Of a stretch of DNA of 64,000 nucleotides, positions 40,761 through 46,449 are shown piece after piece. The DNA is from Cuniculiplasma divulgatum (lineage in GTDB: Archaea; Thermoplasmatota; Thermoplasmata; Thermoplasmatales; Thermoplasmataceae). Numbering within the stretch: the first letter of the stretch is position 1; every line of letters begins with the position of its first letter. The notes under the pieces are model-generated. The model searched no databases, had not been told where the DNA came from, and worked only from the letters and a program-made list of their open reading frames with translations. The translations under genes and the position numbers were made by a program. The DNA lies in contig CP133595.1 of assembly GCA_031200235.1 (NCBI GenBank), positions 1,116,001-1,180,000 on the forward strand, given 5' to 3'.

Positions 40761-42617
40761 ATGGCATTTCAAGGAGCAAGAAAATACAGAGATCTTGGCA
40801 GGAACGGTTACCTCAGAATTTCAAGCCATGGAATGATCGCCAGCAACAGAACCGCTGCCCTTGTGGGCCTGAACGGAACAATCGACTGGGCATGCCTTCC
40901 AAATTTTGATTCACCTCCAGTTTTTGATTCAATACTTGACAAGAACAAGGGTGGTTATTTTTCAATCAAGCCCCATGATACAGAGAATCTTGAGGTCATA
41001 CAGTCATACAAGGAACTCACCAATGTCCTCATCACTGAATTCATCAGGGACGGCAAGATCATACTGCGCCTTACGGACTTCATTCCAACTTCTGACTATT
41101 CAACAATCAGCTTTCCGGAAATACACAGGATGGTTGAGACCACTTCCGAGGATGTGGAAGTTGATATTGCCTTCAAGGCCACCATAAATTACGGGAAACA
41201 TACACCGGTCATAGAGCAGAGGAAGAACGGCTTCATATTCAGGTACAGGGACACAAAGGTTGGGATAGTCAGCGAGATCCCTCTTTCCCGTGATGGCGAC
41301 AGGGTCATAGGTTCCCAGAAAATACCCAGGAGGACTTCAAGATGGCTTGTTGCGCTCTACGGCATTTCACATCTGGACGTTATATCTGACTACAAGTCTT
41401 ACCAGAGGATGGAGGATACCATTGACTACTGGCAGAAATGGAGCAACTCCACCACATACAGGGGGCTCTACAACAACGATGTAAACAGATCTGCCCTGAC
41501 CCTGAAAGGTCTCTTTTTTGAACCAACCGGCCTCATGGTGGCAGCACCCACCACCAGCCTTCCGGAGTGCATCGGAAGCGAGAGGAACTGGGATTACCGC
41601 TTTGCCTGGATAAGGGACACAGCCTATGTCATTGAGGCACTTTCACTCATAGGCTACAAGAGGGAGGCAACCAAGTTTCTCTATGATATGATGGATAAGA
41701 TTGAGCATGATGGTCGAATCCGCACAATATACCCAATAAACAGCAGTTCAAGCCTGGAGGAGATGGAGCTTGATTACGAGGGCTACATGGGATCAAGGCC
41801 TGTCCGCGTTGGCAACAAGGCATCCGATCAGCTCCAGATAGATCAGATGGGATCCATTGTAAATGCAATCTGTGCACTGAGCGATGCTGGCGGCGTAATA
41901 AACTCATATCTCTGGAACTTTGTGGGCGAAACACTGGATCATCTCTCAAAATTATGGAAATCTCCCGATTCAAGCATCTGGGAATTCAGGACAGAACCAA
42001 GGCATTACGTATATTCCAAGGTTGTTTCGTGGTCTGCATTCAACAATGCCATCGCCATGGGCAAATACCAGGGCTTTTCAGGCCCATACAGGAAGTGGAG
42101 GGCCATTGCCGATGAGATAAAGGAGGACATTATTGCCAATGGCTTCAGCGAGGAGCAGAACAGCTTTGTGCAGTATTATGGAAGCAGTGAGACCGATGCC
42201 TCGCTGCTCCGTATGCCGCTCCTGGGCTTCCTTCCTGCTGATGATCCAAGGATCGTTGGCACCGTGGCAAAGATTGAGAAGGATCTCAGGGTCACTGATC
42301 ACCTCTTTCGCAGGTACCGCGAGGATGACGGGCTCAAGGGAGAGGACAACGCCTTCCTCCTTCTCTCATTCTGGTACGTGAACGTCCTGATCCAGATGGA
42401 CAGGATTGATGAGGCCAAGGTCGTGTTCGAATCCATACTTGACAGGGGAAACCACCTTGGTCTTTTTTCTGAGGAGATAGATTTCCAGACCGGGGATCAG
42501 CTGGGGAATTTCCCGCAGGCCATCACACACCTCGGCGTCATAAATGTTGCCCTGCACCTGAATGAGGCATTCAAGGCAAGAGCCTCATTTTCAAGGAAGC
42601 GCCAGGTAGTGAAATAG
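40761..42617 (+). CDS. GH15 glucoamylase-family protein (trehalase or glucoamylase)
   Basis: A 618-aa protein. The N-terminal beta-sandwich begins with YLRISSHGMIASNRTAALVG and LNGTIDWACLPNFDSPPVFD, the standard start of archaeal and bacterial GH15 proteins. The (alpha/alpha)6 catalytic barrel has SERNWDYRFAWIRDTAYV and, near the end, the acidic motif GLKGEDNAFLLLSFWYV, which carries a catalytic Glu. GH15 enzymes of Thermoplasma species have been characterised as trehalases, so trehalose is as likely as maltodextrin. Cytosolic (no signal peptide). TATA-like AATTTATTAAT lies near 40720. The MalEFGK-type importer is adjacent and divergent. Confidence 0.9.
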   Translation: MAFQGARKYRDLGRNGYLRISSHGMIASNRTAALVGLNGTIDWACLPNFDSPPVFDSILDKNKGGYFSIKPHDTENLEVIQSYKELTNVLITEFIRDGKIILRLTDFIPTSDYSTISFPEIHRMVETTSEDVEVDIAFKATINYGKHTPVIEQRKNGFIFRYRDTKVGIVSEIPLSRDGDRVIGSQKIPRRTSRWLVALYGISHLDVISDYKSYQRMEDTIDYWQKWSNSTTYRGLYNNDVNRSALTLKGLFFEPTGLMVAAPTTSLPECIGSERNWDYRFAWIRDTAYVIEALSLIGYKREATKFLYDMMDKIEHDGRIRTIYPINSSSSLEEMELDYEGYMGSRPVRVGNKASDQLQIDQMGSIVNAICALSDAGGVINSYLWNFVGETLDHLSKLWKSPDSSIWEFRTEPRHYVYSKVVSWSAFNNAIAMGKYQGFSGPYRKWRAIADEIKEDIIANGFSEEQNSFVQYYGSSETDASLLRMPLLGFLPADDPRIVGTVAKIEKDLRVTDHLFRRYREDDGLKGEDNAFLLLSFWYVNVLIQMDRIDEAKVVFESILDRGNHLGLFSEEIDFQTGDQLGNFPQAITHLGVINVALHLNEAFKARASFSRKRQVVK

Positions 42618-42660
42618 CGGTTTTCCACTCATTTTCTCATTTTGCACGGACACATAATCT

Positions 42661-42670
42661 GATTAATATA
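42661..42670 (+). promoter_or_regulatory. TATA-like box of PolB2 operon
   Basis: GATTAATATA lies about 22-31 nt before the ATG at 42692, consistent with a leaderless transcript covering the three genes that follow. Confidence 0.5.
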
Positions 42671-42691
42671 CCTGTGTATCTAGAGTAAGGC

Positions 42692-43105
42692 ATGCATGCC
42701 CCTCTCAGGATATTTTCAACGAAATCGTTCCAGGCAGGAAATGTCAGGTCTTTCATGAAGGAGTTTGAATCAGATGTGATTCATCTGCTCATCACGGACG
42801 GCATCATGTCGGATTTCAGGCATGAATTTACCCGTGATGAACTTGGCATCATAATGGTGCAGCGCATACTGACAATATTCCAGCTCCAGAAAATACTCAT
42901 GGATTCAGATGATAAGCCGCATTACCTGGCGCTTGCTTCCGGTGTTGTCTCGTCATGGCCCGGGTCAATTGTGGCCAGCATCTATGACATAGTCCGGATA
43001 ATGACGTACTACCATGGCTGCCCTGTTTACATGAACATAATCGGCGATCCGGGAATAATGTCAAGGTATCTGGGCAACAGGACCATTAATGGGGGGATGA
43101 TCTGA
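42692..43105 (+). CDS. Unknown protein, first gene of PolB2 operon
   Basis: A 137-aa protein beginning MHAPLRIFSTKSFQAGNVRS, with segments that look alpha/beta (DDKPHYLALASGVVSSWPGS, IYDIVRIMTYYHGCPVYMNI). I recognise no domain and no nucleotide-binding motif. A small protein is typically encoded immediately upstream of polB2 in Sulfolobales too, which suggests a partner of the polymerase. It is separated from the next gene by a single base, so the three genes are translated from one message. Confidence 0.75.
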   Translation: MHAPLRIFSTKSFQAGNVRSFMKEFESDVIHLLITDGIMSDFRHEFTRDELGIIMVQRILTIFQLQKILMDSDDKPHYLALASGVVSSWPGSIVASIYDIVRIMTYYHGCPVYMNIIGDPGIMSRYLGNRTINGGMI

Positions 43106-43106
43106 A

Positions 43107-43337
43107 ATGGGAAGGAGCGTTCCAACAGCTCGCCAGGTGATGGAGGATCTGGCAGGAGACCTGGAAAGGATGGCTTCCATAATGCCGCAGTCACAGGCAG
43201 CCATAATGCATGATCTTGTCATGATGGGGCGTAAGCATTCTGCGGAGATATCGTACTCCGGTGTGGATCCATATACGGGTTTTCTGATTTCCATCATCAT
43301 TGATCTCTATTCAAGGATTATGGAGGATGGGCAGTGA
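43107..43337 (+). CDS. Small helical protein, second gene of PolB2 operon
   Basis: A 76-aa, mostly helical protein (MGRSVPTARQVMEDLAGDLE, then MASIMPQSQAAIMHDLVMMG). The ATG starts 1 nt after the first gene and its stop is directly followed by the polB2 ATG at 43338. Methionine-rich and without a recognised domain. Its tight placement argues for a stoichiometric partner or processivity/regulatory subunit of the polymerase; this is inference from gene order only. Confidence 0.75.
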   Translation: MGRSVPTARQVMEDLAGDLERMASIMPQSQAAIMHDLVMMGRKHSAEISYSGVDPYTGFLISIIIDLYSRIMEDGQ

Positions 43338-45353
43338 ATGCACGGAACAATCGTAAACGCCACCGGCTCCGATATCATAAGGGTCTGGTACCTGGATCAT
43401 GGAAAGATAAGCTACAGGGAACACAGCAACAGGAGCTGGATATTCGTGTCCGGAGACATGTATGATCTGGCATTCCTTGCCAGGCAGCTTGATGAATCAG
43501 GCATATACGGATACAGCATGGACACCATGAGGGATGTGCATGGCAGGATTGAAGGCATCAGGATACCCGTATGGCCTTCCGGAATGAGGGATCTCAATGC
43601 TATAATAAACGGCATAGGCATGGAGAGGAAGTTCTCCATATACAACGGTGACATTGATCCGGTGCTGCGCTTCATGGCCGAGAGGAATCTGGGATTCTTC
43701 ACTCTTGAAGACCCCATGGACCAGGACCCGGAGATTCCTGTTTCCACCATAGTGGGCAGGTCCATGCTTGGAGTGCCATATGATATTGAAATAAACGGCA
43801 CGCATTTTCCCAGGATAGATTCGGACGCCATATACGAGGCTCACCGGGCAATAACCCAGGGCACAATAATTGTGTACAGTAACAGGGACGGCTTCTTCAG
43901 GAAGATCCTTCAGATGATTCTCCACCAGGGTTACGGGCTCCCCAGAGTGACCACATCCAGCGGCTCCACATTTGAATCCTACGGGCAGACCCACTACAGC
44001 AATCCGCGGGTTTCAATTGACGGGAAGATATGCATAGAATCTGATTCATTTGCATATTCCGAGACCGGGATTCATGGACTAATTGAGATATCCCGCACAT
44101 CCGGCCTTCCCATCGTGACTGCATCAAGAGTCACCACCGGTACCGCTGTTTCATCAATGGAGGAAGCATATGCATTGAGGAGCGGTGTTCTGATCCCGGT
44201 CAGGAAGGATGATCATGAGGAGGCAAAAAGCGCCGGTACACTGCTGAACACAGACAGCGGCGGGCTGGTACTGCAGCCTGATCCTGGCATTTACACCGAT
44301 GTGCATGAGATTGATTTCTCATCCATGTACCCCAGCATAATGGTCAGGTACAACCTCTCCCCGGAAACCCTCCAGAAGAATGGGGACATAAGGATTCATG
44401 GCACTCCCTATTCCGCATCGGGAACTGACCGGGGTTTCCTAGCATCCGCCCTTGAGGGTCTCCTGAAAAGGCGGCTGTTTTACAAATCGGTGAAGGCCGG
44501 ATCAGGGCTTTACGGCATGAGGGATGCCGCCCTCAAATGGATGCTCTTGACATCATTCGGGTACACCGGATACAAGAACGCCAAGTTCGGGAAGATAGAG
44601 ATACATGAATCAATAACAGCCATGGGGAGATGGGCGCTGGCCATGGCCATGAACATAGCACGGGCCAATGGTTTCACGCCAATACATGGAATAGTGGATT
44701 CACTCTGGATATCAGGCTCCGGCGATGTGAGGAAAGTGCTATGGGAGATTCAGGACAGGACAGGCATAGGCATAGTGGAGGATGGCCACTACAGATGGAT
44801 TGTATTCATGCCGGCGAATTCCGGGCTTGGGGCGCTGAACAGATACATTGGCCTTCGAATGGACGGGACCGTAAAGGTCCGCGGGCTGTACGTCAGGAGG
44901 CGCGATGCCGCACCGGTATGCGTAAACTTCCAGTGGGAAGCCATAGAGATTCTCAGGAGCTGCATGGCTCCTGAAGATATATGGGCAAAACGCAGCGAGA
45001 TCAGGGATCTTGAGGCACGTTATATGAAATCACTCAGGTACCTTCCTCTGGAGGATTTCCGGATACCGCTGCATGTCACAAGAAATCCTGAGGAATATGC
45101 AGTTCACAATATACAGGGAATGGCAATTAAGGAGGCCATGGGCAGGGGATACAGGATCATGCCCGGCAGCAGGGTTGGGGTTGTTGTTGTGGATCACCAC
45201 CACGGCATTGTGGACCTGGATGGCACACATGATGGGATTGACCTGAAGTTCTACGAAAGGCAGCTATCCATGGCATTCAGGCAGATTGACTTTATTGTGA
45301 GGTCATGCTCACCCCGGAAGAAGCAGGCAGATCTCTTCAGTTTCTCCGTATGA
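43338..45353 (+). CDS. Family B DNA polymerase, PolB2-type, without exonuclease motifs
   Basis: A 671-aa protein, shorter than replicative PolB (about 780). Motif [21 protein letters not shown] (about 324-343) keeps its Asp. Motif B is [20 protein letters not shown] (about 399-418), the PolB2 form. Motif C is HGIVDSLWI (about 450-458): the usual DTD is IVD, so one of the two acidic residues is lost. No ExoI DxE motif is visible in the N-terminal half, so proofreading is absent. PolB2 was first regarded as inactivated, and later implicated in DNA-damage tolerance in Sulfolobales. Its 3' end overlaps the convergent orc1/cdc6 gene by 17 nt. Confidence 0.88.
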
Positions 45354-46449
45354 GCGCCTCAACCTTCTCCTCCAGAACAGAAACGGGTATGTCGTTTATG
45401 CCTATGAGCTTGGCAACACCCTGCCTGTCTCCGCGTCCCACAACCCTGCCTTCCACGATGCCCAGGTTCTCAAGCCTCTTTACCGACCTGTATATTGCAG
45501 TGTTCTCCCTGATGGTAACCCCGAACTGTTCAGAGACAATCCTGACGTCCTCAAGAACGCACGACATGGAAGTGCTGGGATCATCCCGGAGACAGTGGCA
45601 TATGGAGAGCAGGACAGCAAGGTCAAGGGGATCAAGTTCGCTGAGCTTGCTCTCCGTCACATACGGGTTGATCATGGACTGTGCTGCCCTGACATCCTCT
45701 ATGGAAACTGATGTGCCGTCACGGTACTCGCAGATGTAAATGGACTTCTGGAGGAGCTCTATGGCCACCCTTGCGCTCCCGAATGGTTCTGCCACATGCC
45801 CTATGTGTCTGAGCATCTCCTCATTTATGGAACCGGGAACCATTGCTATCCTGGCCCTCTCCTCTATGATCCGCACCAGTTCATCCTCGGAGTACCTGTT
45901 GAAAAGAATGCTTGAGAACACGCCCAGGGACTTCCTGTCCCTCTCGGTCATGTAAATGGACGGATCCTCCATTGACACAAGGATTGTGGACACCGGGGTG
46001 GAGTATATCTCTCCTGCCCTGAGGAGATTGTATAGCCCGTCCCTTTCAAATTTTATGAGGTTTGTGGCTTCATCTATGACCAGGACAATCTTCCTGCCCT
46101 TCTTCTGAGACACCAGGTTGAATCCCCTGAAGATGTCTGAGTAGGACATATTCCTGGAACCCACAAGCTTGCCCATGTTGTAAAGGGCATCAATGAGCAG
46201 CATCTTCAGACTGGAGAACGAGAGGGCATTCTCATAAACAATTATGAAGCCTTTCTCCTCCCTGGCAAGGTACTTCATTGTGGAGGTTTTTCCCGTGCCG
46301 GAATCGCCGAACGCCACCAGGTTGTTGCTTATGCCGGCCCTGAGGGGCTCAAGCATGGTTTTCCTGATGGTCTCTATCTGCACATCTCTGAATCTGAGTT
46401 TCTGGGGGACATATGAAAAATCAAGTGCATCGGGATTCCTGACTATCAA
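45337..46449 (-). CDS. Orc1/Cdc6-type AAA+ ATPase
   Basis: A 370-aa replication initiator-like protein. Walker A GDSGTGKTS (48-57), Walker B IVLVIDEATN (121-130), sensor region STILVSMEDPSIYMTERDRK, the lid with the initiator-specific helix, and a C-terminal winged helix (about 285-365: TAIYRSVKRLENLGIVEGRV). Length and domain order equal archaeal Orc1/Cdc6. Such proteins bind origin repeats and load MCM. It lies 41 nt downstream of a radical SAM gene and is probably co-transcribed with it. Whether it is the main initiator or a paralogue cannot be told. Confidence 0.88.
   Translation of the reverse strand: MIVRNPDALDFSYVPQKLRFRDVQIETIRKTMLEPLRAGISNNLVAFGDSGTGKTSTMKYLAREEKGFIIVYENALSFSSLKMLLIDALYNMGKLVGSRNMSYSDIFRGFNLVSQKKGRKIVLVIDEATNLIKFERDGLYNLLRAGEIYSTPVSTILVSMEDPSIYMTERDRKSLGVFSSILFNRYSEDELVRIIEERARIAMVPGSINEEMLRHIGHVAEPFGSARVAIELLQKSIYICEYRDGTSVSIEDVRAAQSMINPYVTESKLSELDPLDLAVLLSICHCLRDDPSTSMSCVLEDVRIVSEQFGVTIRENTAIYRSVKRLENLGIVEGRVVGRGDRQGVAKLIGINDIPVSVLEEKVEALIRRN

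Follow-up and report, generated by a model that had tools for sequence, protein, structure and literature searches.

A probable PolB2 mutasome operon with a strongly reduced iRadA in Cuniculiplasma divulgatum

The iRadA-PPB2-PolB2 operon has been known since a report of 2014 (PMC4104785), and a PolB2-iRadA-(PPB2)3 heteropentamer was modelled as a mutasome in 2025 for other species (PMC11791011). A three-protein complex of this kind, which the initial annotation of the present locus had put forward as a new idea, is anticipated by both reports. In the PolB2 mutasome of the Sulfolobales, represented by the S. islandicus Dpo2 operon, we find the same three families, the MGR arm on PPB2, a non-canonical motif C, the loss of proofreading and an orc1/cdc6 neighbourhood (PMC11791011, PMC4104785). 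Dpo2 of S. islandicus has no exonuclease, extends mismatches distributively and inserts poorly opposite lesions (PMC8764526). The locus described here differs from that system: iRadA has only 137 aa, the PolB2 tail bears a PCNA-type motif, a Y-family polymerase was not detected in the genome, the Orc gene is immediately convergent, and the promoter repeat is a different and longer one. Bacterial PolB2 operons have the same iRadA-PPB2-PolB2 gene order (PMC11791011), but there the neighbour is lexA and the motifs are for the beta clamp, where here we see Orc and a PCNA-type motif. The E. coli Pol V mutasome (UmuC-UmuD'2-RecA) is alike in joining a polymerase to a RecA-family partner and a small accessory protein that is oligomeric, an analogy taken from PMC11791011. 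It is unlike in that its polymerase belongs to the Y family, is not homologous to PolB2, and works with an active RecA.

The window, by which we mean the whole stretch of 64,000 nucleotides that was analysed, contains three consecutive ORFs on the forward strand. The iRadA gene (42692–43105, 137 aa) is followed after 1 nt by the PPB2 gene (43107–43337, 76 aa), and the PolB2 gene (43338–45353, 671 aa) follows with a gap of 0 nt. A TATA-like box, TTAATATA, lies on the same strand at 42663–42670. It is about 25 nt upstream of the first ATG, a spacing which suggests that the transcript may be leaderless. These ORF coordinates bear out the layout given in the initial annotation, namely three genes (137, 76 and 671 aa) separated by 1 and 0 nt behind one TATA box. 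Directly upstream of the operon there is a 618-aa ORF (40761–42617), also present upstream in several relatives, which may be a glycoside hydrolase family 15 enzyme.

The survey covered 61 genomes of the order, and the polB2 locus was examined in 45 of them, the window not being counted. In 45/45 relatives, the three genes are adjacent, co-oriented and in the order iRadA-PPB2-PolB2. This count includes one locus whose iRadA is detected only by the Methanomassiliicoccales model (L044), one that is broken by Ns (L052) and one that is frameshifted in its assembly (L045). The dN/dS values of 0.05–0.25 indicate purifying selection on all three genes. Conservation of order and purifying selection together place the arrangement of the trio beyond chance, and the constant presence of the two small genes beside polB2 supports the earlier suggestion of a mutasome-like complex with two small accessory proteins. 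In one genome (G007), iRadA and PPB2 are fused in frame (L067:4375-5025). A possible internal GTG start (VGRT) lies within the fusion, from which both the fusion and a free PPB2 could arise. In another group of Thermoplasmatales loci (family f4, L040-L043), PolB2 clusters with those of Archaeoglobi and Methanomicrobia and not with other Thermoplasmatales, and this grouping suggests that the operon was transferred horizontally.

The 137-aa protein has no significant Pfam or NCBIfam match, the nearest hint being RadA (TIGR02236) at E 0.15. Direct assignment by these databases was dropped for both small proteins, neither of which gave a significant match. Its identity rests instead on intermediates, fold and context. 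The AlphaFold model (pLDDT 83.7, pTM 0.82) has the RecA/RadA core fold. A Foldseek search with the model returns BcsE first, followed by Dmc1 (E 9.4e-4), RadA (2zud, 1.1e-3), Rad51 surrogate, UvsX and RecA; since BcsE, also RecA-like, takes the first rank, the modelled fold alone is no proof of RadA origin. Comparing the short iRadA family directly with RadA by HHalign gave 0.5%, which is not significant, and a transitive route was used instead. The Thermoplasmatales iRadAs match the longer Methanomassiliicoccales iRadAs at 59–82%, and the latter match RadA at 97% (E 8e-11), with reversed-alignment controls along the chain at 0.05–0.25%. The f4 comparison group excluded L136, a duplicate of f4. 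By its RecA-like model and this chain to RadA, then, the protein, which had been described as uncharacterised, is assigned to the iRadA family and is judged to be a strongly reduced iRadA, probably a catalytically dead RadA/Rad51 homolog.

The part that remains carries a signature. RILTIFQ (R58–Q64; 42863–42883, forward strand) has its R and Q invariant in 34 sequences, and the pattern R-x-[FL]-T-x-[YH]-Q is common to iRadAs including the long ones, with F at the Y/H position in the window protein. It is the counterpart of ARAYNSHHQ in RadA. Neither a GxxxxGK[TS] motif nor the Walker-B Asp is present in the 137-aa sequence. Of the RecA core, the short iRadAs retain no more than the first part, and in the window protein the ATPase site, the N-terminal oligomerisation domain and the C-terminal recombinase half are gone, while the beta3-alpha segment appears to be kept. 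In the Rad51 filament, the segment matching this retained part is one element of the pocket in which the neighbouring subunit sits. PolB2 has been proposed to dock in the iRadA pocket (PMC11791011). By analogy, R58–Q64 is probably part of the PolB2-docking pocket, and we infer that the shrinkage of the protein has spared the docking surface. Its role would then probably be docking, and not ATP binding or a DNA filament.

The 76-aa protein had likewise been called uncharacterised. It begins MGRS; all 27 aligned sequences share M1, G2 and R3, and R9 is nearly invariant among them. An N-terminal MGR[T/S] arm together with a conserved Arg9 is the hallmark of PPB2, formerly arCOG07300 (PMC11791011), and on these sequence features the protein is PPB2, the small helical partner of PolB2. 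An HMM for PPB2 trained on Thermoplasmatales finds a match beside polB2 in 15 of 22 distant loci outside the training set. The two small proteins thus answer to both of the published PolB2 partners, iRadA and PPB2 (PMC4104785, PMC11791011).

The identification of PolB2 itself, made earlier from motif B and from IVD in place of DTD in motif C, holds. NCBIfam NF004416 matches residues 11–668 with 571 bits against a cut-off of 516. Motif A ends at D326, motif B comprises residues 406–418, and motif C is I-V-D at residues 452–454 (44691–44699, forward strand), so that the first catalytic Asp is gone. D326, motif B and both V453 and D454 of motif C are invariant in the PolB2 alignment. The absence of an exonuclease, also claimed from the outset, stands only in part. 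At the sequence level, Pfam finds no exonuclease domain, its sole match being DNA_pol_B (PF00136, 7.8e-20, residues 282–443). The region is not wholly absent, however, in that the AlphaFold model (pLDDT 88.3) aligns with the Pyrococcus, KOD and 9N PolBs over almost their whole length. From this near-full-length alignment, we consider that the N-terminal region was kept and the proofreading motifs were lost, and the N-terminal half is probably an exonuclease-like fold stripped of those motifs and not a missing domain.

The C-terminal tail of PolB2 (QADLFSFSV) is predicted to be disordered, with pLDDT below 50 at residues 662–671, and it contains the PIP-like motif QADLFSF (45324–45344, forward strand). 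In the same genome, PolB3 ends in KKQTSLFEF and FEN1 ends in SQKNLDSFF, and endings of these types are typical PCNA-binding tails. Going by this resemblance, the PolB2 tail is very probably of the PCNA-binding type as well. Its motif is without the second aromatic residue, and many family members have only diverged tails. We counted tail motifs over 91 non-redundant loci with the strict pattern Q-x-x-[ILMV]-x-x-[FYW]. The PolB2 tail has it in 11 of 50 cases in family f1 (shuffled mean 0.86) and in 12 of 12 in family f3 (shuffled mean 0.51). The iRadA tail has it in 4 of 4 cases in f4, in 6 of 13 among Archaeoglobi and Methanomicrobia, and in 1 of 6 of a Methanomassiliicoccales-type group; none of the 91 loci has it on both tails. 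On the PolB2 tree, the cases on the PolB2 tail all fall in one supported clade (f1 with f3) and those on the iRadA tail all fall outside it. The tree excludes L151, a further PolB2-tail match at whose locus no iRadA was found. An either-or rule for the clamp motif has been reported generally (PMC11791011). What is added here, relative to that paper taken without its supplements, is the placement of the motif at the level of lineages and the shrinkage of iRadA. The genomes that have both PolB2 and a Y-family polymerase (G013, G021 and G029, of the Ferroplasma lineage) have the shortest iRadAs, about 116–129 aa, and a PolB2 tail without a PIP-like motif.

A search for Y-family polymerases (PF00817) gave no match in the genome of the window, which is a single contig and 97.5% complete, and control searches were positive in Haloferax, Sulfolobus and Methanosarcina. 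Four genomes of the order have PF00817 above the cut-off, most of the order being without a match. G022, which belongs to these four and is 99% complete, is without PolB2. As far as sequence models can recognise them, PolB2 is the sole lesion-bypass polymerase of the window's genome. Family f5 (L197, L198 and L199), which has neither the PolB2 operon nor a Y-family polymerase, encodes another family B polymerase of 581–607 aa in a neighbourhood shared among the three loci. The notion that it is a diverged PolB2 was rejected, there being no adjoining iRadA or PPB2.

Upstream of the operon lies a direct repeat, CTCATTTTCTCATTTT (42628–42643, forward strand), 64 nt before the iRadA start, which is a candidate damage-response element. 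Aligned with those of relatives, the promoter shows an invariant CTCATTTTCTCATTT, and in 29 of 30 family f1 loci the two-box direct repeat nnCATTTnCTCATTTT stands 61–66 nt ahead of the start codon. The repeat scores 21.5 bits, against at most 8.5 for shuffled controls. The exact 15-mer of the repeat has two copies in the 2.0-Mb genome and 27 occurrences in the 61 genomes, while the backwards pattern has none. Ten of the 27 sites are at polB2 operons and 17 are elsewhere; eight of these 17 precede a small ORF at the same spacing (control 6.8%). Three of the eight small ORFs are AbrB-like, and the one that was scanned matches PF04014 at 1.8e-4, which is below the cut-off of that model. We know of no earlier report of this conserved repeat, a statement made without a dedicated literature search. 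On its conservation and position, it may be the damage switch of the operon.

Several further observations attach to the repeat. AbrB/MazE-like small genes stand behind it at the same spacing in L218, L223 and L224 (G028, G019 and G035), and in L226 and L230 it precedes a different small family, which has the motif LTRxEASDLI. The other exact copy in the window's genome (G000:C1:129089-129104; L205:1501-1516) precedes a 58-aa ORF of unassigned family by 62 nt, and the neighbouring gene may be a serine recombinase. Eight viral-contig matches to the repeat with a spaced ATG are about the number estimated by chance, and we make no claim of a viral link. Sigma-70 and terminator scans were set aside as uninformative for an archaeon.

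An Orc1/Cdc6 paralog (45337–46449, reverse strand; matches to TIGR02928 and Cdc6_lid) is convergent with polB2 and overlaps its 3' end by 17 nt, which makes it a candidate regulator. A divergent Orc1/Cdc6 paralog adjoins polB2 convergently in family loci. At E 1e-30, every one of the 32 PolB2-bearing family genomes has the paralog and none of the 5 without PolB2 does, four of these five being incomplete. In Sulfolobus, the ANTTTC element (DDRE) of damage-response promoters is a binding site for Orc1-2 (PMC9738581, PMC6934391). The likeness to that system lies in an Orc1/Cdc6 paralog and a short promoter element (PMC9738581), and the ATTTTC within the window's repeat fits ANTTTC. The differences are that the conserved element here is a two-box direct repeat longer than the hexamer, that the hexamer is missing in some family members, and that Orc binding is putative. 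Family f3 keeps a variant promoter repeat without a close copy of the window's Orc, which weakens the assignment to Orc. Given the longer element, the incomplete retention of the hexamer and the case of f3, control of the operon by Orc, and with it induction by damage, is only plausible. The repeat was also looked for upstream of the window's own orc gene, as a sign of autoregulation, and was not found there.

Taken together, we put the probability at roughly 86% that the operon encodes a PolB2 mutasome, in which PolB2, iRadA and PPB2 form one lesion-bypass polymerase that is held on PCNA and raised by damage. The pseudo-recombinase iRadA, PPB2 and PolB2 would assemble into a polymerase acting mainly in primer extension. 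PolB2 probably docks on the beta3-alpha segment of iRadA, which corresponds to the Rad51 segment that takes up the neighbouring subunit. PPB2 is probably a trimer with an MGR arm that wedges, close to the DNA, between iRadA and PolB2. The C-terminal tail of PolB2 probably holds the complex on PCNA, and DNA damage probably raises transcription via the upstream direct repeat, with the adjacent Orc1/Cdc6 paralog as the leading candidate regulator.

Other accounts have to be set against a PolB2 mutasome. One would make the 137-aa protein an unrelated alpha/beta protein that was recruited to the operon and has no descent from RadA. Its insignificant direct matches to RadA, by TIGR02236 and by HHalign alike, and the place of BcsE at the top of its fold list fit such a recruit. 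However, the top fold matches after BcsE include Dmc1, RadA, a Rad51 surrogate and RecA, and long iRadAs that are clearly RadA-like occupy the same operon position and carry the same signature, so we regard independent recruitment as improbable. It seems just as improbable that the complex serves, with the adjacent Orc1/Cdc6, to control how replication starts or how origins are recognised, in place of lesion bypass, a possibility raised in PMC4104785 and in keeping with the tight linkage and co-occurrence of the Orc1/Cdc6 paralog and PolB2. The orthologous Dpo2 is damage-inducible and required for induced mutagenesis in S. islandicus, according to work cited in PMC11791011 and PMC8764526. Furthermore, f3 and f4 genomes hold the trio without a close copy of the window's Orc, and a separate Orc1 in the window's genome scores higher than the paralog (397.8 vs 156.6 bits). 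More improbable still is a catalytically dead PolB2 in an operon that is a structural or decaying remnant. A motif C without its first Asp, and the loss of the exonuclease motifs and of the iRadA Walker motifs, could be read as decay, but purifying selection acts on the whole trio, motif B and the residues D326 and D454 do not vary, and IID-type Dpo2 shows biochemical activity (PMC8764526).

A wider proposal builds on the PolB2 mutasome, and we hold it tentatively, as somewhat doubtful. In the Thermoplasmatales family of the window, the repeat nnCATTTnCTCATTTT would be a damage box read by the adjacent, non-initiator Orc1/Cdc6 paralog. It would control the sole bypass polymerase and a few small genes, AbrB-like and others, as a small SOS-like regulon outside the Sulfolobales. 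With the shrinking of iRadA, the clamp tether would have passed from that protein to PolB2.

The kind of operon is already known; what is distinctive here is the small iRadA, the clamp motif borne by PolB2, the lack of a recognisable Y-family polymerase and the promoter repeat. With no such polymerase recognised, and with Sulfolobus PolB2 described as an extender, PolB2 here must insert opposite lesions itself or team with a replicative polymerase. An apparent curiosity becomes a clean comparative system, a PolB2 mutasome without a recognisable Y-family polymerase. The shrunken iRadA reveals which portion of a dead recombinase is retained, and the placement of the clamp motif and the promoter repeat are short, testable handles on recruitment and switching in euryarchaea.
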